Positions 51,450 through 64,000 of a DNA stretch of 64,000 nt are shown here, piece after piece. The stretch is taken from NCBI GenBank assembly GCA_016195565.1, contig JACPZK010000004.1, positions 68,003 through 132,002 of the forward strand, in the 5' to 3' direction. The position numbers and the translations under genes were made by a program. The notes below the pieces were generated by a model, which made no database searches, was not told the DNA's origin, and saw nothing but the letters and a program-made list of their open reading frames with translations. The stretch is from Nitrospirota bacterium (GTDB taxonomy: Bacteria; Nitrospirota; Thermodesulfovibrionia; Thermodesulfovibrionales; UBA1546). Every line of letters begins with the position of its first letter. The first letter of the stretch is position 1.

Positions 51450-52244
51450 ATGAAACAGATATTAGCGATATTTCTGGTGGCTCTATCGTTTTTCTTTAGT
51501 CCTGTTACCTCTGTCCAAGCATCCGAGAAAGTGATTGATATTCCTACACGCCCCGGTGTAACGCAACGATTCCTCTATCTATCTCCAGAGAATCCTAAAG
51601 CCGCTGTTATCCTGTTTGCCGGCGGCCATGGCGGACTCCAGATATCTCAATCAGGCACGTTCACATGGGGGGAAGGAAACTTCATAGTGCGAACACGTCA
51701 CCAATTCGTTGAACGAGGTCTGGCAGTAGCGGTTATAGATGCCCCTTCTGATCGTCAAAGTCCTCCATTCCTCGGCGGCTTCCGTCAAAAACCCGAACAT
51801 GTCGCAGACATAAAGGCCGTAATTACATGGCTCAAAAAACAAAACAATGTGCCCGTCTGGCTTGTCGGAACGAGCCGAGGAACCCAATCCGCTGCCTTCA
51901 TTGCTACACAGCTCGGTTCCAAGGACGGCGGCCCTGATGGGCTGGTATTGACCTCAACAATACTGTCCGACGACAAAGGACGTCCCGTGCCTGAAATGCC
52001 GTTAGAAACAATTGCTATTCCTGTTTTAGCGGTCCACCATGAACAAGACGGCTGCAAGCATTGCTCATACAGTGAAATTCCGCGTCTTATGGAAAAATTG
52101 ATGGCAGTTCCCAGAAAGAAATTGATCACCGTCAAAGGGGGCGAAAATCGTGGTGATCCCTGCAAGGCCTTTGCGTATCATGGCTTTAATGGCATAGAAA
52201 CAGATGTTGTCGCTAGGATATCTGAATGGATCAAGCAAAAATAA
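51450..52244 (+). CDS. Secreted alpha/beta hydrolase
   Basis: A 264-residue protein with a signal peptide (residues 1-24) and an alpha/beta hydrolase core. Nucleophile elbow GTSRGTQ (Ser about 145) in VWLVGTSRGTQSA, acidic residue in LAVHHEQDGC and catalytic His in FAYHGFNGIE. Oxyanion segment ILFAGGHGGLQ is upstream. Could be an esterase or peptidase; substrate unknown. It lies just behind the transposase element. Confidence 0.78.
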   Translation: MKQILAIFLVALSFFFSPVTSVQASEKVIDIPTRPGVTQRFLYLSPENPKAAVILFAGGHGGLQISQSGTFTWGEGNFIVRTRHQFVERGLAVAVIDAPSDRQSPPFLGGFRQKPEHVADIKAVITWLKKQNNVPVWLVGTSRGTQSAAFIATQLGSKDGGPDGLVLTSTILSDDKGRPVPEMPLETIAIPVLAVHHEQDGCKHCSYSEIPRLMEKLMAVPRKKLITVKGGENRGDPCKAFAYHGFNGIETDVVARISEWIKQK

Positions 52245-52256
52245 TAAAGAATAATT

Positions 52257-52333
52257 AGGGACACATCCCATTTGTGCTATTGTGCTATGAACAAGCATAT
52301 AATAAGCCCAAGGGCTGAGGGACACTTCCCATA
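52257..52333. repeat. Remnant repeat pair AGGGACACWTCCCAT
   Basis: AGGGACACATCCCAT and AGGGACACTTCCCAT occur 61 bases apart between the hydrolase and the 87-residue ORF. These look like ends left by small interspersed elements. Confidence 0.5.
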
Positions 52334-52367
52334 TTTCATAAAAATCTTTACATATAAAGGATGTTAA

Positions 52368-52631
52368 ATGATACTTAAGAGAACCAATCGCGTTTATTAC
52401 ACAAGGTCAGATGGTTATCCTCAAATCAGGGTCTATCACAAAAAGGGTTTAGGGAAGAAGATGCCGCGATACCTCTTGAAATGTGGTTGTTGCGACGAGA
52501 AGTTGGAAATATACTATGACGACGAAGGACTTGAAATAAATGGTGTGAACGGTTCGATAGATGATTGGCGTGAGATTTTTCTTCCACTATTGCGGATTAA
52601 GCAGAAAGGCAACAGGCTTATTGTCAAATAG
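52368..52631 (+). CDS. Small protein of unknown function (87 residues)
   Basis: Starts MILKRTNRVYYTRSDGYPQ with an aaagga site upstream. A KCGCCDEKL stretch (two Cys pairs) suggests a metal knuckle, followed by the acidic YYDDEGLEI and WREIFLPLL. Looks like a real small protein by codon use; no family recognised. Confidence 0.6.
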   Translation: MILKRTNRVYYTRSDGYPQIRVYHKKGLGKKMPRYLLKCGCCDEKLEIYYDDEGLEINGVNGSIDDWREIFLPLLRIKQKGNRLIVK

Positions 52632-52714
52632 TGTTAACCAAAAATATTAATTATCCTAACAACTCACTCCAGCTGACACGGTAAAACCGTGCTGCTGATT
52701 TCAGACGTTCTAAC

Positions 52715-53986
52715 TCAAACCTTCTTAAACGCCAGCACCGCATTCACGCCGCCGAATCCGAATGAATTTGAAACTGCGGTTTTAATCTCAGCCTTTCTGG
52801 TTTCAGTGACATAGTTCAAATCACACTCAGGGTCTTTTGTCTTAAGGTTTATAGTAGCGGGAATTATGCCCTCATAAAGACTCATTAATGTAACAGCCGC
52901 CTCAAATGCGCCTGATGCCGCAAGCATGTGCCCTGTCATTGACTTTACAGCGCTTATCGGAATTTCATAAGCCCTTTTGCCAAAGGCAAGTTTTATAGCC
53001 TCTGTTTCTGCCTTATCACCGAGAGGCGTTGATGTGCCGTGCGCATTGATATAATCCACATCTACGTGCAATAACCCCCCTTCTTCCATCGCAATCCTTA
53101 TCGCCCTTGCCTCTCCCTCTGCGCCGGGCCTTGTCTGATGGAATGCATCCGTGGTATTTCCGTATCCTATAATCGCGCCATAAATCTTCGCCCCTCTTTT
53201 TAAGGCAGACTCATAATCTTCAAGGACAAGAACAGATGCGCCTTCTGCAAGAACAAAACCGTCTCTCGTTTTATCAAACGGCCTGCTTGCTGAGGCGTCG
53301 TTTCTTTTTGATAATGCGCCTGACACGCCATACCCTTCTACGCACAGCCTGCATATCGGAGCCTCTGTGCCTCCGGCAAAAACAGGGCCATCGTATCCTG
53401 ACTTTATCAATCTGTACGCCTCGCCTATTGCATTTGCGCCTGATGAGCAGGCATTCGATACGCCAAGACAGTGCCCTTTTATCCCGAGCTTCTGAGCCAC
53501 ATAAGACGCTGCGGCATTCACGCTTGTTGAAGGCATGAGATAAGGGGAAAGGCGTGATGCGTGATGCGTGGTACGTGATGCGTATATTTTTTCCAATTCC
53601 CTTTCAATTGTGGTAATCCCGCCTCTGCTTGAGCCGATAATCACACCGCCTGAAGCGAGTGACGAGTGACGAGTGACGAGTGACGAAACTTTATTTTTTT
53701 CTGATGGCTGGAGCAGTCCTGCATCTTCTGCCGCCATAAAAGAGGCAGCAACCGCATACTGAACAAAGGGATCAAGATGGGTCATCTCTTTTTGAGACAG
53801 ATACAGTCCTGCATCAAAGCCTTTTAATTCTCCTGACATTTTCCACTTCATCGGGGGAACATCAAATCTTGTTAGAGGAGCTATGCCCGATAATCCTTTT
53901 TTAACAGACGTCCACGATTCATGGAATGAATTACCCAGAGAAGTGACTGCGCCGATGCCTGTTACAACAACTTTTCTCATTGTCAA
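52715..53986 (-). CDS. fabF: 3-oxoacyl-ACP synthase II with two tandem-repeat insertions
   Basis: A 423-residue KAS II that elongates acyl-ACP in fatty acid synthesis. Catalytic Cys in GVSNACSSGANAIG, His in NAHGTSTPLGDKAE and KSMTGHML. Family length is about 410-414; the surplus comes from two insertions coding VTRHSSLA (about residues 98-112) and THHASR (about 133-146), both from tandem repeats and both in surface loops. Start MTMRKVVVTGIGAV. Alone here, without acpP or fabG. Confidence 0.95.
   Translation of the reverse strand: MTMRKVVVTGIGAVTSLGNSFHESWTSVKKGLSGIAPLTRFDVPPMKWKMSGELKGFDAGLYLSQKEMTHLDPFVQYAVAASFMAAEDAGLLQPSEKNKVSSLVTRHSSLASGGVIIGSSRGGITTIERELEKIYASRTTHHASRLSPYLMPSTSVNAAASYVAQKLGIKGHCLGVSNACSSGANAIGEAYRLIKSGYDGPVFAGGTEAPICRLCVEGYGVSGALSKRNDASASRPFDKTRDGFVLAEGASVLVLEDYESALKRGAKIYGAIIGYGNTTDAFHQTRPGAEGEARAIRIAMEEGGLLHVDVDYINAHGTSTPLGDKAETEAIKLAFGKRAYEIPISAVKSMTGHMLAASGAFEAAVTLMSLYEGIIPATINLKTKDPECDLNYVTETRKAEIKTAVSNSFGFGGVNAVLAFKKV
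53549..53585. repeat. In-frame tandem repeat insertion in fabF (second)
   Basis: GCGTGATGCGTGATGCGTG-type repeats read as TTHHASR on the gene strand. Frame is kept. Located in the loop before the conserved MPSTSVN segment. Confidence 0.75.
53653..53687. repeat. In-frame tandem repeat insertion in fabF (first)
   Basis: Four copies of CGAGTGA in a row; on the gene strand TCACTCG repeats are read as SLVTRHSSLA. Located in a loop before the strand VIIGSSRGG. The frame is unbroken. Confidence 0.8.
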
Positions 53987-54120
53987 CTATGATAGCATAT
54001 CTGGTTTACAATGACGCCAACTCAAAGCCTGCCGCCTCTTAAGTAGTTCCAGTCTTAGAACAAAAAGTTTTCCCTACCATTTCCTATGTTAATTATGTTA
54101 TCTTTTCCAGAGAGGAAAAG

Positions 54121-54900
54121 GTGCCCGGAGAAATCCTGAAAAAGAAGCGTGAAGAATTGGGGTATAACCTCAAGGAAATTGCCAAGACCCTGAAAATAAG
54201 ATCCGATTATCTAAAGGCAATTGAAGAGGGAACCTTTGAAAAACTTCCCGTAGAGGTTTATACAAAAGGCTACATCAGAGAGTATGCCAAATTTCTTAAA
54301 ACAGACCCTGAAGCTGTTATAAAGGCTTATATAGAAAAGATATCGCCTCCTGTAATAGAAAAACAACCTGACCCTATTACTTCTGCTGAAAATACCATTA
54401 AAGAAGAGAAAACCGATAAAAGATACTCCGCGACTGCAATCACGCTGTCAGCAGTGGCAGTTGCAGCTTTATTAATTGCTTTATCCTTATTTGTTTTTGC
54501 TCCTGAAGAACCCAAAACGCCTCTGCCTGAAAAAACAGCGCCAACACCGCCCGCGCTGCAGAGCGTCAGCCCAGTGCAAGAAAAAGAAAATACTGAAAAA
54601 GCAAAAACAGAAGCTGCGGCAAATCCACAAGGAGAAAAAACAGCGAAAGAACACAGCCTTGAGATTCTCGCTTCAGACAAAACATGGATTCTTGTAACTA
54701 TTGACAATACTGAGTCAAAAGAACTCCTTCTAAACAAAGGCGAGTCGGCAAAGCTTTCGGCAAAGAACGGCTTTTTTCTGAAAATCGGAAATGCCGGCGG
54801 AATCAAACTGATATTTGACGGAAAGGACATAGGAGCGCCCGGAGAAAATGGCAAGGTCATAACACTCAATCTTCCGTCCGATAAAAACTTCAACCGTTAA
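54121..54900 (+). CDS. RodZ-like helix-turn-helix membrane protein
   Basis: A 259-residue protein from GTG at 54121 with a preceding gaggaaaag. N-terminal Xre-type HTH (LKKKREELGYNLKEIAKTLKIRSDYLKAIEEG, residues 6-37), membrane segment (about 102-127), Pro/Ala/Lys-rich linker, and a C-terminal beta domain of the DUF4115/RodZ kind. RodZ links MreB to the envelope and shapes the cell. It lies directly upstream of the Crp/Fnr regulator with a 22-base gap. Confidence 0.82.
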   Translation: MPGEILKKKREELGYNLKEIAKTLKIRSDYLKAIEEGTFEKLPVEVYTKGYIREYAKFLKTDPEAVIKAYIEKISPPVIEKQPDPITSAENTIKEEKTDKRYSATAITLSAVAVAALLIALSLFVFAPEEPKTPLPEKTAPTPPALQSVSPVQEKENTEKAKTEAAANPQGEKTAKEHSLEILASDKTWILVTIDNTESKELLLNKGESAKLSAKNGFFLKIGNAGGIKLIFDGKDIGAPGENGKVITLNLPSDKNFNR

Positions 54901-54922
54901 AAGAAACGACCTCCTTAAGACA

Positions 54923-55594
54923 ATGATTGACTTTAAAAAAATTCCGATATTCAGCACGTTAAACGCTTCCGACATGGAGGAAGCAAAACCTTACCTCATC
55001 CCCGCCAAATTCAAGAAAAAAGAGGTTATATTTTCCGAGGGAGATTCGTCCGACTGGCTTTATGTCGTAATTAAAGGCAAGGTCAAGATTACCAAGCTCT
55101 CACAGAGTGGAAGAGAAATCATACTTGAAATCATTTCTCCGATGGATTTTTTTGGCGGAGTTGCCGTAATGAGAGGCTTCCCCTACCCCGCAAATGCCGT
55201 TGCGATGGATGATGCGGAGCTTCTAAAAATATCACGCAGCAACTTAATGCGCATACTCGACAGATTCCCCAACCTTATGTATTGTATGGCGATGAATATA
55301 GGCGACAGAATCAAAGGCTCCCATGAGGCGTTGAAAAACATTGCTGTTGAAAAAGTTGAATCACGAATAGCCTCTTTGCTCATAAAGCTTGCTGATAAAG
55401 CAGGCAGCAAAACTGATGGCAGCATTACTATCGACATGAAACTTACAAAACAGGATATTGCCGAGATGGTCGGAACCACTGTAGAGACATCCATAAGGAC
55501 AATGAGCAAATTCAAAAAACTCGGCATTGTCTCAGAAAAAAGCGGAAAGATATTTATAAAAGACTTAACCAAGCTTAAATCTCTTTGCAGTTAG
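54923..55594 (+). CDS. Crp/Fnr-family transcription factor, likely nitrosative-stress regulator
   Basis: A 223-residue regulator: cNMP-like beta-roll (EVIFSEGDSSDWLYVVIKGKVKI, FFGGVAVMRG), long dimer helix and winged HTH (KQDIAEMVGTTVETSIRTMSKFKKLGIV). Recognition helix T-V-E-T-S-I-R keeps the FNR-type Glu and Arg, but Ile replaces FNR Ser212. No N-terminal Cys cluster like FNR, so it may sense NO through heme or another cofactor, as DNR/HcpR do. It sits next to seven matching palindromes upstream of nitrite/NO genes, the basis of the regulon proposal. Confidence 0.88.
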   Translation: MIDFKKIPIFSTLNASDMEEAKPYLIPAKFKKKEVIFSEGDSSDWLYVVIKGKVKITKLSQSGREIILEIISPMDFFGGVAVMRGFPYPANAVAMDDAELLKISRSNLMRILDRFPNLMYCMAMNIGDRIKGSHEALKNIAVEKVESRIASLLIKLADKAGSKTDGSITIDMKLTKQDIAEMVGTTVETSIRTMSKFKKLGIVSEKSGKIFIKDLTKLKSLCS

Positions 55595-55598
55595 CCCT

Positions 55599-56006
55599 TT
55601 ACTCTGCCGCCTTTGAATAGAGTGTTGCAATCATGTTATAGAAAAACATAAAAATTGAGACTGCCTCAACCACTCCGAAAGCAGCGGTAATGCCTCTGTA
55701 AGAATCTGTCTGATTATAAATACCGAGAGTATAGAACAACAGCATTCCCACAAGACCAATATTCGCAAGCCAGAACTGAACCTCTCCTATAGTCTTGCTC
55801 TTCAAAAATCTGCCTGCAAATTTAGGGAGTATGTGGTAACCAACCCCAAAAATCATCATCGAAACCCATCCAAGCAGCATAAGATGAGAGTGCACAAACT
55901 TAAATTGCATCAAAGACGGATTGCCGAACATGAATATCCCAAGCACTGCGGCGATTGTGAGATACACAATGCTCATCAAGATAAAGTTTTTAACAAATCT
56001 GTCCAT
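55599..56006 (-). CDS. Small membrane protein related to heme-copper oxidase/NnrS-like subunits
   Basis: A 135-residue protein with four membrane segments (about 8-28, 40-62, 76-95, 104-125). The segment VHSHLMLLGWVSMMIFGVGYHILPKF has His residues at intervals (37, 39, 56) like heme-binding helices of subunit I proteins, but the full catalytic set is missing. It is divergent from the 152-residue protein gene, with two TATGA-N6-TCATA sites between. Probably a heme-binding NO-stress protein; not certain. Confidence 0.72.
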   Translation of the reverse strand: MDRFVKNFILMSIVYLTIAAVLGIFMFGNPSLMQFKFVHSHLMLLGWVSMMIFGVGYHILPKFAGRFLKSKTIGEVQFWLANIGLVGMLLFYTLGIYNQTDSYRGITAAFGVVEAVSIFMFFYNMIATLYSKAAE

Positions 56007-56061
56007 AAAGCCCTCCTGTGTTTTATTTATACATAAATTATATCATTACATATACGATTGC

Positions 56062-56077
56062 TATGATAAATGTCATA
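56062..56077. promoter_or_regulatory. Palindrome TATGATAAATGTCATA, regulator site 1
   Basis: Fits TATGA-N6-TCATA. 56 bases from the start of the 135-residue membrane protein (minus strand) in the divergent gap. Confidence 0.75.
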
Positions 56078-56105
56078 AAACGGCAGCTCTTAGCAATTAG
56101 CTTTA

Positions 56106-56121
56106 TATGACATATATCATA
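56106..56121. promoter_or_regulatory. Palindrome TATGACATATATCATA, regulator site 2
   Basis: Fits TATGA-N6-TCATA. 58 bases upstream of the ATG at 56180 (plus strand). Pairs with site 1 in a 173-base divergent region. Confidence 0.78.
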
Positions 56122-56179
56122 GAACTCTTACCTAAATCAGTGTAATCTAAAATCAAGAACTTTAAAAATGGAGGTTGAA

Positions 56180-56638
56180 ATGAAAGCAAATATAATTGAA
56201 GGATGCCCGTCATGCTCTTCTATTGGAGAGTTGGCAAAGGAGACCGAAGGTAAAAAGGACTACAGGCTTTCGCACTGGCCCATACAGATTAAGCTTATGG
56301 GAACGGTCATCCCGTTCCTTAATAATGCAGACCTGCTTGTAGCTGCTGACTGCACAGCCTTTGCCCTACAGAATTTCCATGAAAGATTCCTGAAGGACAG
56401 GAAGCTCCTGATAGGCTGTCCCAAGCTGGATAATGCGCAAGCCTATATTGAAAAGTTCACCGAGATATTCAGCAATATCCCCATTAAAAGCGTTTCATGT
56501 CTGAGGATGGAGGTTCCGTGCTGCGGAGGAATGACGGCGATACTAAGGGAAGCAATAAACAAGTCCGGGAAGGATATACCGTTTGCTGAGACTATCATAG
56601 GAGTTAAGGGTGATGTGCTTTCCGAGAGGGGAATATGA
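56180..56638 (+). CDS. Cys-rich iron-sulfur-like protein of unknown role
   Basis: ATG at 56180 has GGAGG five bases upstream; the ATG at 56168 would cover that site. 152 residues, Cys at GCPSCSS (9 and 12), AADC, GCPK, VSC and PCCGG. LSHWPIQIKLM, FLNNADLLVAADC and MEVPCCGGMTAILREAI are conserved in a family of Fe-S proteins that usually carry a ferredoxin domain in front; here that domain is absent. Likely electron-transfer partner in the NO/nitrite block. Confidence 0.72.
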   Translation: MKANIIEGCPSCSSIGELAKETEGKKDYRLSHWPIQIKLMGTVIPFLNNADLLVAADCTAFALQNFHERFLKDRKLLIGCPKLDNAQAYIEKFTEIFSNIPIKSVSCLRMEVPCCGGMTAILREAINKSGKDIPFAETIIGVKGDVLSERGI

Positions 56639-56649
56639 CACATATCATA
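56634..56649. promoter_or_regulatory. Palindrome TATGACACATATCATA, regulator site 3
   Basis: Fits TATGA-N6-TCATA. It overlaps the stop codon of the preceding gene and lies 70 bases before the DUF1858 gene start at 56720. Confidence 0.75.
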
Positions 56650-56719
56650 AACTTCTCTTCAGTTTATTGTTAAACTGAAAGCAAGAACAGGCAAAAACTT
56701 GAATGTAAAGGAGGCAGAG

Positions 56720-56932
56720 ATGATAGCAACAAAGACAAAATTCACAAAAGACACCATAATAGGAGATATAGTAATGCACAGCCCTGCCGCATCAAATGTT
56801 ATAGAAAAATACTTCGGCAACGGCTGCTTCACATGTCAGGGCATGAAGGTAGAGTCTCTTTCATTTGGGGCAATGATGCACAATGTTGACCCTAACAAGA
56901 TTATTGAAGAACTAAACGCTTTGGAGGAATAA
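56720..56932 (+). CDS. DUF1858 / hybrid-cluster-protein-associated redox disulfide domain protein
   Basis: ATG at 56720 is chosen for taaaggaggcagag upstream. 70 residues: DTIIGDIVMHSPAASNVIEKYFGNGCFTCQGMKVESLSFGAMMHNVDP. The CFTC pair is the redox disulfide of the prismane-associated domain (TIGR03980), often found beside hcp. It may assist in NO detoxification. Followed one base later by a 42-residue Cys protein. Confidence 0.85.
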   Translation: MIATKTKFTKDTIIGDIVMHSPAASNVIEKYFGNGCFTCQGMKVESLSFGAMMHNVDPNKIIEELNALEE

Positions 56933-56933
56933 A

Positions 56934-57062
56934 ATGGAAACAAAATGTTTTGTATGCGAAAAAACAGACAAGGGAGTTGTCTATCTTAAGTGCATCCACG
57001 AAGGAAAAGAAAAGTTTGTATGTGTGAGATGCCTGCCGGTTCTGATACACGGAGCGCATTAA
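56934..57062 (+). CDS. 42-residue four-Cys mini-protein
   Basis: Starts METKCFVCEKTDKGVVYL and ends CVRCLPVLIHGAH. Two CxxC pairs (residues 5-8 and 30-33) suggest a zinc ribbon or small electron carrier. It starts one base after the DUF1858 stop, with an aggaat site inside that gene, so it is surely co-translated. No family name given. Confidence 0.7.
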   Translation: METKCFVCEKTDKGVVYLKCIHEGKEKFVCVRCLPVLIHGAH

Positions 57063-57220
57063 GATAAAGCAATATTAACCGTCTGACAGATTATTTTCTA
57101 TGGCATTTTAAATGGCGTTCATATCTAAACAGAATCCTTTTAAAATGCCAAACTCCTTTGCATACGGACAGAGTTCCTCTGCCTCGGTACTCCAAAAAGA
57201 AAAATCCGAAAACCTAAAAA

Positions 57221-57236
57221 TATGATTTAAATCATA
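57221..57236. promoter_or_regulatory. Perfect palindrome TATGATTTAAATCATA, regulator site 4
   Basis: Perfect 16-base dyad, identical to site 5. Lies 206 bases before the octaheme nitrite reductase start, farther than the others, but about 102 bases upstream of the promoter -35. Confidence 0.8.
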
Positions 57237-57322
57237 CCCTTGAAAAATAAGTTCACTTATCCTAAGCACAATATGTTCTCATTATCACAATATCAGAATA
57301 GCACAATAGCTCGAATCGTTAT

Positions 57323-57350
57323 TTGACTTCCATTCCAACTCTGCTATGCT
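57323..57350 (+). promoter_or_regulatory. Putative promoter of the octaheme nitrite reductase
   Basis: TTGACT (57323-57328), 16-base spacer, TATGCT (57345-57350). Would start transcription about 86 bases before the ATG. Confidence 0.5.
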
Positions 57351-57442
57351 TCACTTATAAGGGGGTGAGAAGCATAACAAAAAGCGGCAAAGCAGCAGGA
57401 CATGTATTAACAACTCTTTAAATCTTAAAAAGGAGGGATTAA

Positions 57443-59140
57443 ATGAAAAAGAGATTTCTTATAGCATTTATGGCAGCGCTTGCAATTTCCATGTTAATCG
57501 GAATCCATTACTCAAGTGCAGATGCGGAAAAGGCAAAACCGTATGCAGGGACAACTGCCAAGAAAGCAATGCCTGCAGAAAAAGCAGTTAAGGTTGAGAC
57601 CTGCTATAGCTGCCATTCACCGATAAAAGAGCTTCATACAATGGGCAAACATGCAAAGGTTAATTGCACGAACTGCCATAGCGGTCTTGACAAACATCAA
57701 AAAGCACCCGGACCTGAGACAAGGCCTTCAACCAACACATCATGGGAGGCTTGCGGACAGTGCCACAAGGAGCAATATGACAGTTTTATGAAAACTGCCT
57801 ATTACAGGCCTGCAAGAGATGAGAAATCACAGCTAACAAACAGGGCGCCTAACCCGTTCTGGGACAAACTTATGATGGGGCACGGCTTCACAAAGGAGCA
57901 CAACCTCACAAGAAGCCACAACTGGATGCTCATAGACCATCTTATTGTTGACAGGGCATACGGAGGAAGGTTCCAGGGGAAAAACGGCTGGCAGTACATA
58001 TTTGATAAGGGCAAGGCCTGGGATGTCCTTATGGACAAATATCCGCAAACCAATGAGCATAAGGCATTTATTCCTCAGAGCGCTGCCGCTGCAAATCCAG
58101 TTTGTCTTCAGTGCAAATCACAAGACAACATCCTTGATTGGGCCTATATGGGCGACCCGGATAAAGGCGCAAAATGGTCAAGGACATCCAATGTTGTTGA
58201 GGTTGCAAAGTCTATTCAACATGGCCTTAACTGTTTCCAATGTCACGACCCGCATGCTGCAAAACCAAGAATAGTCCGAGATGGTCTTATCGATGCACTG
58301 ACAAGACCTGACGGAGATACCCTCTGGCACAAGGATCCAAAGAGGACCGGCATCAAGGTCATTGAAATGGGATTAAGGGGTTATACGAGGAAAATAGCGC
58401 TGCTTGATAAGTATGACACAAGGCTTCAGTGCGGGCAGTGCCATGTGGAATATAACTGTAACCCGGGGTATGATCCCAAAAATTCCGACACCTCAAAATA
58501 CACTATCACAATGGCTGACAGAAGGACAAACCACTTCCCGTATAAGGACGTATTCGACCTTTATGACCATTATGTAAATAAGGTCAGCTTCCTTGACTTC
58601 AAACACACACTGACCGGCGGCCTCCTCTGGAAGGCGCAGCATCCCGAATCAGAGACATTCTATAATTCAAAGCATGCAAAGGCTGGCGCGGGATGCGACA
58701 GCTGCCACACACCAAAGGTTAAGGACAAAAAGACCGGGAAAACATACACATCCCACTTTGCAGTTACACCGAGAGTTCAGTTGAAAGAGACATGCCTGAA
58801 ATGCCATTCCAAATGGACAGAAGAGCAGGCAAAATATTCCATTGACTCGATAAAGGCGCATATTAAGGGTAAGATGAGAAAAGCCGAGTTCTGGCTCTCT
58901 GCGCTCATAGACAAGATTGTTGAGGGCAAGAAGGCTGGACTTGCTGAAGACGTTATCAACAAGGCTCAGAATCAGCATCTACGGGCTCATATCCTCTGGG
59001 AGTACTGGACTGCCGAAAATTCTGACGGTTTCCACAATCCTGAAATGGCAAGGGAATCTCTGACAAAATCAGTTGATGAGTCACTGAAAGGCATCAAAAT
59101 CCTTACTGATGCAATGACTGCAAAAACAGCAGCAAAGTAA
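57443..59140 (+). CDS. Octaheme nitrite reductase (ammonia-forming, TvNiR-like)
   Basis: A 565-residue exported protein (signal peptide to about residue 27). Eight heme motifs in order: CYSCH (54), CTNCH (75), CGQCH (104), CLQCK (221), CFQCH (264), CGQCH (330), CDSCH (418), CLKCH (451); the fourth is the CxxCK catalytic heme, as in TvNiR. Active site: Tyr337 in CGQCHVEYNC with Cys339 two residues later (the TvNiR Tyr-Cys link spacing), His400 in LWKAQHPES, and an Arg near 171-176 in DRAYGGR. Reduces nitrite to ammonium in the periplasm. Shine-Dalgarno aaaggaggg. Followed by a terminator. Confidence 0.93.
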   Translation: MKKRFLIAFMAALAISMLIGIHYSSADAEKAKPYAGTTAKKAMPAEKAVKVETCYSCHSPIKELHTMGKHAKVNCTNCHSGLDKHQKAPGPETRPSTNTSWEACGQCHKEQYDSFMKTAYYRPARDEKSQLTNRAPNPFWDKLMMGHGFTKEHNLTRSHNWMLIDHLIVDRAYGGRFQGKNGWQYIFDKGKAWDVLMDKYPQTNEHKAFIPQSAAAANPVCLQCKSQDNILDWAYMGDPDKGAKWSRTSNVVEVAKSIQHGLNCFQCHDPHAAKPRIVRDGLIDALTRPDGDTLWHKDPKRTGIKVIEMGLRGYTRKIALLDKYDTRLQCGQCHVEYNCNPGYDPKNSDTSKYTITMADRRTNHFPYKDVFDLYDHYVNKVSFLDFKHTLTGGLLWKAQHPESETFYNSKHAKAGAGCDSCHTPKVKDKKTGKTYTSHFAVTPRVQLKETCLKCHSKWTEEQAKYSIDSIKAHIKGKMRKAEFWLSALIDKIVEGKKAGLAEDVINKAQNQHLRAHILWEYWTAENSDGFHNPEMARESLTKSVDESLKGIKILTDAMTAKTAAK

Positions 59141-59152
59141 TAAAAAGATTCA

Positions 59153-59183
59153 AGCAGAAGGGTCTGTTTATGACCCTTCTGCT
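59153..59183 (+). terminator. Hairpin terminator after octaheme nitrite reductase
   Basis: Arms AGCAGAAGGGTC (59153-59164) and GACCCTTCTGCT (59172-59183) with loop tgtttat, followed by TTATCTG. Ends the reductase transcript. Confidence 0.75.
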
Positions 59184-59271
59184 TTATCTGAACCCGCATC
59201 CAGTTAAAGTTTTAATTCCTTTTACCGAAGCAATGCATCAAATCAACCCTTGCATTTTTAAAAAATTGTAT

Positions 59272-59287
59272 TATGATTTAAATCATA
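59272..59287. promoter_or_regulatory. Perfect palindrome TATGATTTAAATCATA, regulator site 5
   Basis: Identical to site 4. It lies 78 bases before the norC start at 59366. Confidence 0.82.
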
Positions 59288-59365
59288 GAAGTAAAACACG
59301 GTTTAACCTTAAAATTATCCAAAACAACAACCGGATTATCACCGGAAATCTTGAAGGAGGTGTTT

Positions 59366-60055
59366 ATGAACAATAAGGCTGCAAAAAATCTTTTCATCTA
59401 CGGCAGTCTCTTCTTCTTTGTTATCTTTGTTGCCCTCACAGTTGACACTATGGGGAAACTTGACAAGAGGGCACCTGAGATAACAGAAGATGTGAATGCT
59501 GGGAAAATGGCATGGCACAAATATGACTGCATCGGATGTCATACCATTTTTGGAAACGGTTCTTATTTTGCGCCCGACATGACAAAGGTCGCTGAGAAGA
59601 AACCAAAGGAGTATCTTAAAAAGTTTCTGATGGATCCAAAGGCTGTCAATCCAAAGACATCAATGCCTAAACTTGGAATAAGCTCTGAAGAGGCTGACAA
59701 ACTGTTAGCGTTCCTCGAATGGACTTCAAAAGTCGACACCAACGGCTGGCCTCCAAAACCAATTCTTGCCACAGCAGCAGGTGTTGGAGGAAAAGAGCTT
59801 ACAGAAGGACAAAAAATTTATCGGTCGTCAATCTGTTCCAACTGTCACATGATAAACGGAATCGGAGGTACAACGGCACCTGAACTTACTAATGTCGGAG
59901 CTAAAAGAGACAGGGCCTGGCTCATAGGCCATTTCAAAAACCCGTCAGCATATGTGCCCAACTCTGCAATGCCTGCTTTTGGGAATCTGAAAGAAAAAGA
60001 GCTTAATGACTTAACCGATTACATGCTTACGCTTAAGCAGGAGGTGACTAAATGA
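59366..60055 (+). CDS. norC: NorC with extra C-terminal cytochrome c domain
   Basis: ATG at 59366 has gaaggaggtg upstream. 229 residues: membrane anchor (residues 9-29), NorC-like domain with heme motif CIGCH (55-59) in HKYDCIGCHTIFGNGSYFAPDMTKV, then a second cytochrome c domain with CSNCH (157-161) and MPAFG as distal Met. Typical NorC has one heme and about 145-150 residues. It donates electrons to NorB. The norB ATG overlaps the end by four bases. Confidence 0.93.
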   Translation: MNNKAAKNLFIYGSLFFFVIFVALTVDTMGKLDKRAPEITEDVNAGKMAWHKYDCIGCHTIFGNGSYFAPDMTKVAEKKPKEYLKKFLMDPKAVNPKTSMPKLGISSEEADKLLAFLEWTSKVDTNGWPPKPILATAAGVGGKELTEGQKIYRSSICSNCHMINGIGGTTAPELTNVGAKRDRAWLIGHFKNPSAYVPNSAMPAFGNLKEKELNDLTDYMLTLKQEVTK

Positions 60056-61425
60056 GCATAAAATATGAAAGCCAAAAATTAGCTCAGAATTTCTATACAT
60101 TTGCCGTGCTTCTGTTCCTGGTACAGGTAGTGGTCGGCATAATAGCTGCCGTTCAGTTCATCCGGCCCGACTTTTTCATCCTGAACTTCAACATAATAAG
60201 GACTCTCCATATCAACGCCCTTGTGGTGTGGTTGCTTGTGGGGTTCATGGGCGCAACCTATTATGTTGTTTCTGAAGAATCGGAGAGTGAGTTATGGAGC
60301 CTTCCCCTTGCAAAATTCCAGTTTTGGGCAACGGTTGTAGCAATAACATCAGTGGTTCTCGGCTACATTATTATGGGAATAAATCCACAGGCAAACACCC
60401 TTGTATTCGGCACAAGGCTTTTAAATGAGGGAAGGGAATATATTGAGGCCCCGCGCTGGGCAGACATCCTGATTGTCATATCAATTCTCTTGTTCCTCCT
60501 GAACTGTTTTATGACCGTGCTCAAGACAAAGAAGTGGACAGGCATTCAGGGTGTTCTCCTCGGCGGCCTTGTTTTCCTCGCCCTGATGTATCTTCCCGGC
60601 ATGATGTACACAAAGAGCATGGTAAAAGACCAGTTCTGGTGGTGGTGGGTTGTGCATCTCTGGGTTGAGGGCGCATGGGAAATAATCGCAGGCGCACTGC
60701 TCGCTTTTATGTTGATGAAGCTTGTCGGAGCAAAGAGAGAGGTAGTTGAGAAATGGATGTATGTTGAAGTGGGCCTTGTTATGTTTACAGGAATTCTCGG
60801 CATAGGCCATCACTATTACTGGATTGGCACGCCGTCTTACTGGCTCTGGGTCGGCGGTATATTCAGCTCGCTTGAGCCGATTCCATTGCTTGTGATGGTA
60901 TGGGACGCATTCAGGACAACGAGAGAAACAAGAAACGTAACCAATAAGGCAGGGCTTTATTATACAGTAGCTCATGCGATATTCAACTTTGTAGGCGCAG
61001 GGCTATGGGGTGTAATACACACACTGCCGCAGGTAAACAAATGGACTCATGGCACACAGATAACGGCAGCGCATGGACATCTTGCATTCTACGGCGCATA
61101 CGTCCTTCTTGTCATGGCAATGATATATGTAACACTTCCTGCAATCAGGGGTGTTAAGGAATTTAATCCATCAAGGGCCTTTCAGTCATTCTGGTGGATG
61201 ACAATCTCGATGGTATTAATCGTTCTTACGATAACAGGCGCGGGGATGGTACAAGTCTATATGGAAAGACTCATGGGGCTTGATTATGTGGCTGTCAAGA
61301 GTATATACAATCTCTGGTTCTGGATATTTAGGGCGATATTCGGTGTCGGCTTTCTCATCGGCGTGGGGATATTTGTAGTGGATTACTTCAAGCTTGGGAA
61401 AGAGCCTGCTACGGCAAAGGCATAG
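60052..61425 (+). CDS. norB: Cytochrome-c dependent nitric oxide reductase, large subunit
   Basis: A 457-residue membrane protein with about 12 segments reducing NO to N2O. Family residues are all present: His202, Glu206 and Glu210 in HLWVEGAWE (heme b3 / FeB site), GIGHHYYWIG with the HH pair, and SLEPIP with the conserved Glu. The absence of an N-terminal extra hydrophilic part separates it from quinol-type qNor. It forms a unit with norC, under site 5. Confidence 0.95.
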   Translation: MSIKYESQKLAQNFYTFAVLLFLVQVVVGIIAAVQFIRPDFFILNFNIIRTLHINALVVWLLVGFMGATYYVVSEESESELWSLPLAKFQFWATVVAITSVVLGYIIMGINPQANTLVFGTRLLNEGREYIEAPRWADILIVISILLFLLNCFMTVLKTKKWTGIQGVLLGGLVFLALMYLPGMMYTKSMVKDQFWWWWVVHLWVEGAWEIIAGALLAFMLMKLVGAKREVVEKWMYVEVGLVMFTGILGIGHHYYWIGTPSYWLWVGGIFSSLEPIPLLVMVWDAFRTTRETRNVTNKAGLYYTVAHAIFNFVGAGLWGVIHTLPQVNKWTHGTQITAAHGHLAFYGAYVLLVMAMIYVTLPAIRGVKEFNPSRAFQSFWWMTISMVLIVLTITGAGMVQVYMERLMGLDYVAVKSIYNLWFWIFRAIFGVGFLIGVGIFVVDYFKLGKEPATAKA

Positions 61426-61431
61426 CTTAAA

Positions 61432-61463
61432 AATACGAGGGCGGTTGAAACCGCCCTCGTATT
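61432..61463 (+). terminator. Strong hairpin after norB
   Basis: Arms AATACGAGGGCGGTT and AACCGCCCTCGTATT around a two-base loop, starting seven bases after the norB stop. Likely terminator or transcript stabiliser; no U-run. Confidence 0.7.
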
Positions 61464-61585
61464 CGTCTATCATATCCGTATGAAAAATTTTCTCCTGATT
61501 TTCTCCATCACTGTTTCTTTATCATGTATTTATATTTCTAATTATTTTCATAATCGCCCTCTGGAGATGGTGGTAAAATCATAAT

Positions 61586-61601
61586 TATGACTTATATCAT
61601 A
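61586..61601. promoter_or_regulatory. Palindrome TATGACTTATATCATA, regulator site 6
   Basis: Fits TATGA-N6-TCATA. It lies 34 bases before the ATG at 61636. Confidence 0.78.
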
Positions 61602-61635
61602 GTGCGCTCTCACCTTTATGTGTTATTAATAAACC

Positions 61636-62598
61636 ATGAAGCTGACAATATACAGAAGAATTACTCAGGTGTCATTTATACTGCTCATCTTTCTCATGCC
61701 GGTTCTGGACATCCTCAGATACGACACTGCAACAAAAGAACTCATAGTGTTCGGTCAGTCCTGGAGCCTCGGACTAAAAGAGGGTTTTTATGCCGACCCG
61801 TCAGCTTCCGGAGCATTTCATATAGCCATTCAGTTTTTCCTGAAGGCAATACTCCCGTGGCTTTTTATTCTCGCGATATTTCCTTTACTCGGCTATCTCA
61901 CAGGCAGGTTATTCTGTGGATGGCTCTGCCCCGAAGGGACACTCTTTGAGCTGTCTGATTATCTGACCTTAAAGCTTACAGGAAGAAGAAGTCTTTATAC
62001 TAAGAAGCCGAATGACCCTGACACATGCAAAACCAATAAGCTGATTTACCGAGCTTTAGCATTTGCAAGCGCAGTGATAATTCCGCTTATTGGAGGCATA
62101 GCGCTCACAGGGTATTTTGTAGCTCCGAAAACCATTTGGAGCCAGATAATAAACTGGGATTTTACATTAGGGGTAAAGGCAGGCATTATCGGGGTTTCCA
62201 TATACATGCTGATTACTTCAATATTTGTCAGGCATACGCTCTGCAAATTCGTCTGCGCTGCAGGCCTTATGCAGATGCTTTTTGGATGGATAAGCCCTCT
62301 TTCCCTGAGACTTAAAATGGATGTTGCAAGGAGTAGAGATTGCACTGACTGTAAAGAATGCGAGAAGGCATGTTTTATGAATGTTATTCCAAGGAAAAAT
62401 AAAAGGGATATCTCGTGCGTGAATTGCGGCGCCTGCATAGCTGCATGCAATAAAGAACTCGGCAATGGCAAAGGGCTTTTTCATTATAGCTTTGGCGAAA
62501 AATGCACTTCGCCCATGGAAAATTCTAAGAACCTGACCGAGATACCATCTTATCCCTTACAGAAAGGGCGGGAAGGTGTTAAAATTAAAGCGTTATGA
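61636..62598 (+). CDS. NapH/NosR-type polyferredoxin membrane protein
   Basis: A 320-residue protein with five or six membrane segments and two types of Cys motif: GRLFCGWLCPEGTLFEL and RHTLCKFVCAAGL (the CxxxCP pairs of the family), then two 4Fe-4S sites RDCTDCKECEKACF and SCVNCGACIAACN. Such proteins (NapH, NosR/NirI) pass electrons from quinol to periplasmic reductases. Preceded by regulator site 6. Followed by a cupin gene. Confidence 0.88.
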   Translation: MKLTIYRRITQVSFILLIFLMPVLDILRYDTATKELIVFGQSWSLGLKEGFYADPSASGAFHIAIQFFLKAILPWLFILAIFPLLGYLTGRLFCGWLCPEGTLFELSDYLTLKLTGRRSLYTKKPNDPDTCKTNKLIYRALAFASAVIIPLIGGIALTGYFVAPKTIWSQIINWDFTLGVKAGIIGVSIYMLITSIFVRHTLCKFVCAAGLMQMLFGWISPLSLRLKMDVARSRDCTDCKECEKACFMNVIPRKNKRDISCVNCGACIAACNKELGNGKGLFHYSFGEKCTSPMENSKNLTEIPSYPLQKGREGVKIKAL

Positions 62599-62609
62599 AG
62601 GAGGGATAT

Positions 62610-62924
62610 ATGGAAACATTAGACCTGAAGAAGTTAATTAAATTTCAGCCTGACAGGATTTCAAGAGAGATGCTTTCTGACAAGCCTGAGATGCGCATTG
62701 CCTTGATGTGTTTAAACGAAGGGCAGAAACTTGAACCGCATAAGGCGCCATTAAGGCTTCTCATGTACTGTGTTCAGGGCAAAGGAACATTTATCGTCGG
62801 AGATGAACGCATTGAGGCAGATGAAAAAACATACATACTCTGTGACCCGATGGTGCCTCACGGCTTTGAGGCAGACAAAGGCGAAAAACTTGTGGTTATG
62901 GCTGTTGTTACGCCGGTTGAATAG
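62610..62924 (+). CDS. Cupin-domain protein
   Basis: ATG at 62610 is chosen for gaaggagggatat upstream. A 104-residue single cupin: LNEGQKLEPHKAPLRLLMYCVQGKGTFIVGDERI and YILCDPMVPHGFEADKGEKL (His in each motif, so a metal site is likely). Starts 11 bases after the polyferredoxin stop, in the same unit. Substrate unknown. Confidence 0.85.
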   Translation: METLDLKKLIKFQPDRISREMLSDKPEMRIALMCLNEGQKLEPHKAPLRLLMYCVQGKGTFIVGDERIEADEKTYILCDPMVPHGFEADKGEKLVVMAVVTPVE

Positions 62925-62963
62925 GCAATAAATATTTTTAAAGCAGTCAAGGTATAGTGGTCA

Positions 62964-63509
62964 CTAAAGCCAATATTCAGGATATTTTCTGTTTCTTGAA
63001 AGGTTATTTACAATAAGCGCAACAATCAGAAGTACGACTGCTCCTGCTCCGGCAGGGACAAAGGCATAAAGAAATCCAAGGTTGTGTATCTTTTCGCCTC
63101 CAATAACGGCAATTAATGCCGTAGCTCCGCCGGGAGGGTGAAGAGTCTTTGTTACAAGCATCGCAACAATAGCAATAGATACTCCAATTGCAGCAGCAAG
63201 CCATATCATTTCACCGAATAACTGATATGATGCGACACCGATAAGTCCTGATATTACATGCCCGCCCACAAGATTTCTCGGCTGTGCCAGCGGGCTTTTT
63301 ATTGCGCCATAGACAAGCACTGCGGATGCGCCAAAAGAACCTATTATCAGAGTGAGATCTCTCGGCTCAAAATATTTTGAAGAAAGGTAACCGCAGATGC
63401 CAATGCCAATCGCAGAGCCAAGCCATGACCAGATAACCTCTGGTAATCCTACAGCAGGTGGTCCCTTCGCACCTCCAGCCATTTTTATAAAATATTCCTT
63501 AACGCTCAT
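62964..63509 (-). CDS. HPP-family membrane protein, possible nitrite transporter
   Basis: A 181-residue protein with four or five membrane segments and the HPP motif TKTLHPPGGATALIAVIGG near the middle, with GSFGASAVLVYGA and GHVISGLIGV. Some HPP proteins in cyanobacteria and chloroplasts take up nitrite. Here it neighbours nitrite and NO reduction genes, which supports that idea. Co-directional with a 45-residue gene seven bases upstream. Confidence 0.85.
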   Translation of the reverse strand: MSVKEYFIKMAGGAKGPPAVGLPEVIWSWLGSAIGIGICGYLSSKYFEPRDLTLIIGSFGASAVLVYGAIKSPLAQPRNLVGGHVISGLIGVASYQLFGEMIWLAAAIGVSIAIVAMLVTKTLHPPGGATALIAVIGGEKIHNLGFLYAFVPAGAGAVVLLIVALIVNNLSRNRKYPEYWL

Positions 63510-63516
63510 TTTTTAT

Positions 63517-63654
63517 TTAACGCTCTTTGGGTTTGCGCATGCCCGTCTTCGCCGCACCACAGCCCTTACATGCCCTGCCGCCTTCAAGCGTGATTAGCGC
63601 ATTATCCCCATCTAACCTGATTACCGTTCCGTTTTCTGTTACTGTAGGATTCAT
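63517..63654 (-). CDS. Truncated RseC/SoxR-reducing-type protein
   Basis: Forty-five residues: MNPTVTENGTVIRLDGDNALITLEGGRACKGCGAAKTGMRKPKER. The start and the ACKGC pair match the N-terminal part of RseC-type proteins, which have more Cys and two membrane segments beyond. The rest is missing, so it may be a mini-gene or a remnant. Its start is 36 bases from site 7, and the HPP gene follows it. Confidence 0.55.
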   Translation of the reverse strand: MNPTVTENGTVIRLDGDNALITLEGGRACKGCGAAKTGMRKPKER

Positions 63655-63690
63655 GTTAATAACATTCTAACCCATTATAATCGCCCCGGT

Positions 63691-63706
63691 TATGATTTAT
63701 CTCATA
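63691..63706. promoter_or_regulatory. Palindrome TATGATTTATCTCATA, regulator site 7
   Basis: Fits TATGA-N6-TCATA with one mismatch in the middle. It stands in the divergent gap between the truncated RseC-type gene and the ORF at 63733. Confidence 0.72.
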
Positions 63707-63732
63707 GTTGTGCCCGTTTTTTAAATTATGTC

Positions 63733-63855
63733 ATGGGCCGTATAATGCTTGCCTTTATTGCTGCTTATATCACCGCAACGTATATCTTTACTCATCACAT
63801 GGAAGGCGTGATTTTAAAGAGTGCTTCCCACAGATACGGAGGAAGCGGAATTTGA
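63733..63855 (+). CDS. Possible 40-residue membrane mini-protein
   Basis: MGRIMLAFIAAYITATYIFTHHMEGVILKSASHRYGGSGI: a short hydrophobic helix and basic tail. Starts 26 bases after site 7 without a clear ribosome site. Too short to be sure; listed because the site is close. Confidence 0.35.
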   Translation: MGRIMLAFIAAYITATYIFTHHMEGVILKSASHRYGGSGI

Positions 63856-63923
63856 CATCCTCTAAAAAGTGTGATTTAATTCAATTAACATATAATCAAT
63901 ATTGCCAAATAATAGGTTTGTTT

Positions 63924-64000
63924 ATGGCAGAGGTGAATGTTAACAAGGAAGTTTCAGGCGAAAAGAATGGGGTAACTAACATGTATGACTTAGCTAACTT
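63924..64000 (+). CDS. Start of an ORF running off the window
   Basis: ATG at 63924 opens a frame that stays open to the window end (MAEVNVNKEVSGEKNGVTNMYDL). The ribosome site is weak. Only 25 codons visible, so no function can be given. Confidence 0.4.
   Translation, partial: MAEVNVNKEVSGEKNGVTNMYDLAN

Follow-up and report, generated by a model that had tools for sequence, protein, structure and literature searches.

HcpR regulators (HcpR1 and HcpR2) have been described in Desulfovibrio, Geobacter, Clostridium and Bacteroidetes, with the known boxes TGTGA-N6-TCACA, TTGAC-N4-GTCAA and GTAAC-N4-GTTAC (PMC1274295, PMC12750200). Their sensing of nitric oxide (NO) is haem-based, as with Met68 of P. 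gingivalis HcpR (PMC12750200). In denitrifying proteobacteria, the Crp/Fnr proteins DNR and NnrR activate genes for nitrite and NO reductases, and the DNR box is TTGAT-N4-ATCAA (PMC1274295). Here we analysed a window of 64 kb from the Nitrospirota contig JACPZK010000004.1, in which a gene for a 223-residue Crp/Fnr-family protein lies beside repeated copies of a 16-base box, TATGA-N6-TCATA; the whole genome (2.30 Mb) was also scanned for exact matches. Sequence comparison makes it highly probable that this protein acts as a dimeric, cyclic AMP (cAMP)-independent class II activator that induces nitrite and NO genes through the box. We conclude that it is a putative HcpR/DNR-like activator with a new half-site, TATGA. 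We found no nitrogen-oxide regulator described for Thermodesulfovibrionales in the literature, no PMC paper containing the box strings, and none joining Thermodesulfovibrio with HcpR.

Like the HcpR proteins, the regulator belongs to the Crp/Fnr proteins without FNR cysteines that occur in strict anaerobes and have boxes varying with residues 180/181. HcpR regulons comprise hcp, Hcp-associated ferredoxin-type proteins, nitrite reductase and sometimes norB, and the putative targets here are of the same kind, with hcp among them in relatives. It differs from them in its box, which is paired with V180/I184 (CRP numbering) and matches none of the known HcpR boxes, and in its targets. The gene hcp is absent from its own genome, where the only Prismane-family gene encodes CODH, and is a target in relatives only; the most constant target instead encodes a COX1-like protein. 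Because its box is none of the known HcpR boxes and hcp control was seen in relatives only, we do not file the regulator as HcpR, although it probably works like HcpR. DNR and NnrR are proteobacterial and use a TTGAT-type box, whereas the orthologues found for the present regulator are nearly all from Nitrospirota.

The box occurs at seven exact sites in the window (56062, 56106, 56634, 57221, 59272, 61586 and 63691). These are the positions given in a preliminary description of this DNA, and our scan revealed no eighth exact match. Two sites (57221 and 59272) are indeed identical perfect dyads, TATGATTTAAATCATA, and the gene at 54923 is, as had been stated, the sole Crp/Fnr regulator gene in the window. 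The half-site is likewise neither of FNR nor of CRP type, since the boxes match neither TTGAT-N4-ATCAA nor TGTGA-N6-TCACA. By first-order resampling, 0.1 boxes are expected in the window on average (maximum 2), and no other five-base N6 dyad (1024 tested) occurs more than once within 54923-63855. Spacers and flanks vary among the copies, and the centres are AT-rich. Genome-wide, there are 14 exact boxes versus 3 for the reversed control. Seven of the 14 fall outside the cluster. Coding genes (lgt, murE, rseP, nuoM and a TPR gene) contain five of them, which look like chance occurrences and were treated as background. Another sits between nitrogenase-like genes (C22:63487). The last, at C20:1333, precedes a gene for an 80-residue zinc-ribbon-like Cys-rich protein (L169, G000:C20:1333-1624) with a -10-like TAAAAA at similar spacing; it is probably an eighth regulon site, and no other box beyond the cluster is convincing in this genome.

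A regulator search of genome contigs yielded 41 loci, nearly all from metagenome-assembled genomes of Thermodesulfovibrionales/Nitrospirota. The box enrichment predicted for relatives was found there: 584 kb around regulator orthologues contain 58 boxes versus 0 reversed controls, the commonest placement being some 450-850 bp past the regulator, in front of the COX1-like gene and its neighbour. These numbers were gathered using the motif, while the following COX1-like promoter sets were chosen without it. In the promoters from loci already collected (n = 34), the box is exact in 32 and has one mismatch in 2. In further promoters from relatives, picked by gene position alone (n = 58), it is exact in 34 and has one mismatch in 22; random pieces gave 39 one-mismatch and 0 exact boxes out of 2000 (2%). 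All mismatches fall in the outermost base, and ATGA-N6-TCAT is invariant in 56/56 box-bearing promoters. Genomes of family f2 (L204-L216) mostly have C at the outer end of one arm (CATGA), so that the box drifts there with the inner bases fixed. Conservation is order-wide and includes GC-rich genomes. Genomes with the COX1-like gene on another contig or well away from the regulator (G003, G012, G024, G045) retain the box, as predicted for a trans-acting relation rather than inheritance of one DNA stretch. Refined boxes number 270 versus 28 controls in genomes with a close regulator orthologue and 86 versus 24 in those without. Of the 104 genomes with the regulator, 81 also have the COX1-like gene, versus 3 of the 45 without a regulator, counts that ignore shared ancestry; conversely, the regulator was found in 81 of the 84 genomes that have the COX1-like gene.

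The boxes also keep a fixed distance to putative promoters. In 54 of 112 oriented box/target pairs, a -10-like TA...T starts 29.5 bases from the box centre (mean 3.5 per other offset), and in the gene-anchored set the -10 peak is at offset 29 (31/56) and 30 (11/56). Each of the seven window boxes has a -10-like hexamer at offset 27-30. Placing the -10 element at -12 to -7 puts the box centre at -41.5, where CRP and FNR act as class II activators. The window boxes stay within about two bases of this geometry and do not overlap the -10 element, so that on sequence they look like class II activator sites. This fixed position is the strongest evidence for activation. In several box-driven genes, translation would begin some 42 bases from the centre of the box, at a position of about +1 to +3: the polyferredoxin gene (61586-61640), RseC-like genes (L139:1037-1090 and L170:2960-3010) and a gene for a sulfite/nitrite-reductase-type protein (L165:2000-2056). 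Their mRNAs are apparently leaderless.

The regulator scores above the cut-off for PF00027 and PF13545, and its fold as predicted by AlphaFold matches CRP structures over the full length; the model gives no clue to the ligand. In E. coli CRP, cAMP is contacted by E72, R82 and S83. In the alignment the CRP cassette GELGL...RSA is replaced by GGVAV...PYPAN, and these contacts are lost. FNR-type 4Fe-4S cysteines are absent in the regulator and its aligned orthologues. The recognition helix reads V187-E188-T-S-I191-R192, in which V187 aligns with R180 of E. coli CRP and V208 of FNR, E188 with E181/E209, I191 with G184/S212 and R192 with R185/R213. With CRP (22% identity) the system shares the N6 dyad spacing, the inner bases G-A, the E181/R185 equivalents and the class II position, but R180 is replaced by V and G184 by I. 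With FNR (25% identity) it shares the V208/E209/R213 equivalents and, putatively, activation from -41.5, but S212 is replaced by I, the cluster cysteines are missing, and the discriminating half-site base is T in FNR versus A here. TATGA is one base away from the CRP half-site, the third base of wTGTGA (the second of the five) being A here and G in CRP. According to Rodionov et al. 2005, base 3 of wTGTGA is paired with residue 180 and base 6 with residue 181 (PMC1274295); the retention of E181 and A6 together with the change of R180 and G3 fits this code. In this scheme, E188 and R192 would retain the G-A of the half-site and V187 would remove the contact to the G of TGTGA, while our guess is that I191 selects the A. 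Orthologues of about 45% identity with a T/V-E-T-x-I/F-R helix still have perfect boxes nearby. The V-E-T-S-I-R-type helix is the only one in its own genome; the one other full-length Crp-type protein there carries R-E-A-I-S-K. This second regulator (L196, L200; G000:C4:11240-12293) has cAMP-pocket-like residues and an R-E helix, and its gene directly follows that for a YihY-like membrane protein fused to a cNMP-binding domain.

The features of the cluster are as follows.
54923-55594, plus strand: Crp/Fnr-family regulator, 223 residues (Pfam cNMP_binding and HTH_Crp_2, alignments, CRP-type fold).
55599-56006, minus strand: COX1-like membrane protein, 135 residues, four helices (Pfam COX1 positions 310-404, alignment, model, weak PDB match).
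56037-56042, minus strand: -10-like TATAAT assigned to the COX1-like gene, at offset 27 relative to the box 1 centre.
56062-56077: box 1, TATGATAAATGTCATA, serving the minus-strand COX1-like gene.
56106-56121: box 2, TATGACATATATCATA, serving the plus-strand gene at 56168; TAATCT at offset 29, the better placed of two candidates.
56168-56638, plus strand: Cys-rich, probably Fe-S protein, 156 residues (no Pfam match; box-bearing orthologues in 11 loci).
56634-56649: box 3, TATGACACATATCATA; -10-like TAAACT at offset 29.
56699-56932, plus strand: DUF1858/hybrid-cluster-protein-associated redox disulfide domain protein (PF08984, TIGR03980).
56934-57062, plus strand: conserved 42-residue CxxC protein (METKCFVCEKTD...) in the DUF1858 operon.
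57221-57236: box 4, TATGATTTAAATCATA, perfect dyad; -10-like TATCCT at offset 29.
57443-59140, plus strand: octaheme nitrite reductase, 565 residues (phmmer E = 1.3e-164 to the eight-heme nitrite reductase 2zo5).
59272-59287: box 5, TATGATTTAAATCATA, perfect dyad; -10-like TAAAAT at offset 30.
59351-60055, plus strand: NorC-like cytochrome c with two haem domains, adjoining norB.
60052-61425, plus strand: NorB, the cNOR catalytic subunit (E = 8e-116 to 3o0r chain B).
61586-61601: box 6, TATGACTTATATCATA; -10-like TATTAA at offset 30, start codon at about +2.
61636-62598, plus strand: polyferredoxin (NapH/CcoG-like), 320 residues.
62595-62924, plus strand: cupin protein, 109 residues, in an operon with the polyferredoxin (Pfam).
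62964-63509, minus strand: HPP transmembrane protein, 181 residues (PF04982), downstream of the RseC-N-like frame; a box precedes a homologue in L146.
63517-63654, minus strand: 45-residue open reading frame (ORF) like the RseC N-terminus (MNPTVTENGTVIRLDGDNALITLEGGRACKGCGAAK...), without Pfam match; L139 has a box-bearing full-length RseC homologue.
63691-63706: box 7, TATGATTTATCTCATA; -10-like TAGAAT (63664-63669, minus strand) at offset 29.

Two target assignments of the preliminary description could be refined. Boxes 56062 and 56106 serve divergent targets, 55599-56006 on the minus strand and the gene at 56168 on the plus strand. The box at 63691 reads toward the minus strand, where the RseC-N-like frame starting at 63654 is followed by HPP; the plus-strand ORF after this site was rejected as target because the -10 element and the RseC/HPP genes are on the minus strand. 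The 42-residue CxxC protein (METKCFVCEKTDKGVVYLKCIHEGKEKFVCVRCLPVLIHGAH) has a homologue in L026 and L173 (L173:2427-2633). The leader of the nitrite reductase gene (57237-57442) is unusually long, with about 180 nt from the predicted start to the ATG; no Rfam match to a structured RNA leader was found within 52000-64000.

Across loci, target clusters comprise COX1-like (29), the Cys-rich 156-residue protein (11), multiheme cytochromes of nitrite reductase or HAO-like type (9), DUF1858 (7), polyferredoxin (5), cupin (5), NorC (4), the Prismane family (4) and CBS (3), with two each for RseC-like, HPP and ClC. By sequence and length, three of the Prismane-family targets are Hcp-type and one is CODH-like. 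Thus hcp, named in advance as a test gene, is a box target in three relatives. The proposal of a nitrite/NO regulon is supported by such nitrogen-oxide targets and by the co-occurrence of the regulator and the COX1-like target. A box also precedes the gene for an HAO-like multihaem cytochrome (PF13447) in two relatives (L142:2187-3440 and L172:626-1858) and that for the sulfite/nitrite-reductase-type protein in L165.

The COX1-like protein is the regulon's most constant target, more so than hcp or nor, and also its least understood part. It aligns with positions 310-404 of the Pfam COX1 profile, and H39-S40-H41 and H58 are invariant in the orthologue alignment. The model has four helices (predicted local distance difference test, pLDDT, 79); its best structural matches are COX1 and NOR chains, though weak (best E 0.08). 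NorB of the window has HGH at an apparently similar place to the HxH of the COX1-like protein. It is a reasonable guess that the latter is a haem protein acting on NO. A more far-reaching idea, which we put forward tentatively and hold to be somewhat doubtful, is that a third solution of the CRP/FNR DNA code (A, via V187 and I191) governs an order-wide nitrosative regulon, with the COX1-like core being a minimal membrane haem protein that handles or senses NO.

In the mechanism that we propose, a regulator dimer would bind TATGA-N6-TCATA (core ATGA-N6-TCAT) centred at -41.5 of target promoters and would recruit RNA polymerase in class II fashion. The induced genes would be those for the octaheme nitrite reductase, NorCB, DUF1858, COX1-like, polyferredoxin-cupin and RseC/HPP proteins, and hcp where present; their products would reduce or detoxify nitrite and NO. 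The signal may be NO or a nitrite-derived cue, possibly sensed through haem as in HcpR. The sequences themselves show the box, how well it is conserved, its distance to the -10 element, which genes it precedes and that it is inherited together with the regulator. We infer three further elements: the 223-residue protein as box binder, activation, and the nature of the signal. Several observations weigh against this mechanism. No box lies upstream of the regulator gene itself, and two of the 58 gene-anchored promoters have none. Boxes remain somewhat above controls in genomes without an orthologue (86 versus 24). In three genomes (G031, G046 and G061; L202, L201 and L203) the COX1-like gene has an exact box and no close regulator orthologue was found, perhaps due to incomplete assemblies. 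Finally, box and co-occurrence counts alike ignore shared ancestry.

The alternative that survives best, though we consider it unlikely, is that the regulator binds and activates in response to a general redox or anaerobic cue, within a respiratory regulon that extends beyond the nitrogen-oxide genes. Relatives do have some targets of other kinds (ClC channel, CBS proteins, CODH-like, phosphatase), and the sensor ligand is not readable from sequence; however, the regulator lacks FNR-type cysteines, and nitrite reductase, Nor, Hcp and Hcp-associated proteins make up the core of the target set. Binding mainly as a repressor released by NO has a parallel in HcpR-type repressor models, such as that proposed for HcpR2 of Desulfovibrio desulfuricans (PMC5701242), but the location of the boxes at -41.5, an activating position for CRP/FNR proteins, with no -10 overlap makes this quite improbable here. 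We give still less credence to another factor, a second Crp-type protein or an unrelated one, binding the box with the neighbouring regulator as a bystander. Binding by the regulator is itself inferential, and the three genomes just mentioned would suit such a binder. Against it, box counts and the COX1-like gene track the regulator, and the N6 dyad, with its TGA/TCA arms and its location at -41.5, has a CRP-type architecture; the second genomic Crp protein is disfavoured by its R-E-A-I-S-K helix, which is expected to prefer a CRP-like G. A chance cluster or AT-rich repeat, which has only the AT-rich centres in its favour, is refuted by resampling (about 0.1 expected), reversed-pattern controls, differing spacers and flanks, order-wide conservation and the fixed -10 spacing, and its probability is negligible.

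Activation of nitrite and NO genes by the 223-residue regulator would give a large, mostly uncultured order, with sulfate reducers, magnetotactic and subsurface bacteria among its members, a regulon and an operator that can be tested. The CRP/FNR specificity code would gain a pairing in which V180 and I184 go with A as base 3 of wTGTGA, and an orphan four-helix COX1-like protein is nominated as a core NO-response protein. The box may be used to find further regulon members in metagenomes. Overall, Thermodesulfovibrionales appear to switch on their nitrite and NO genes via one Crp/Fnr-type regulator and a 16-base box.

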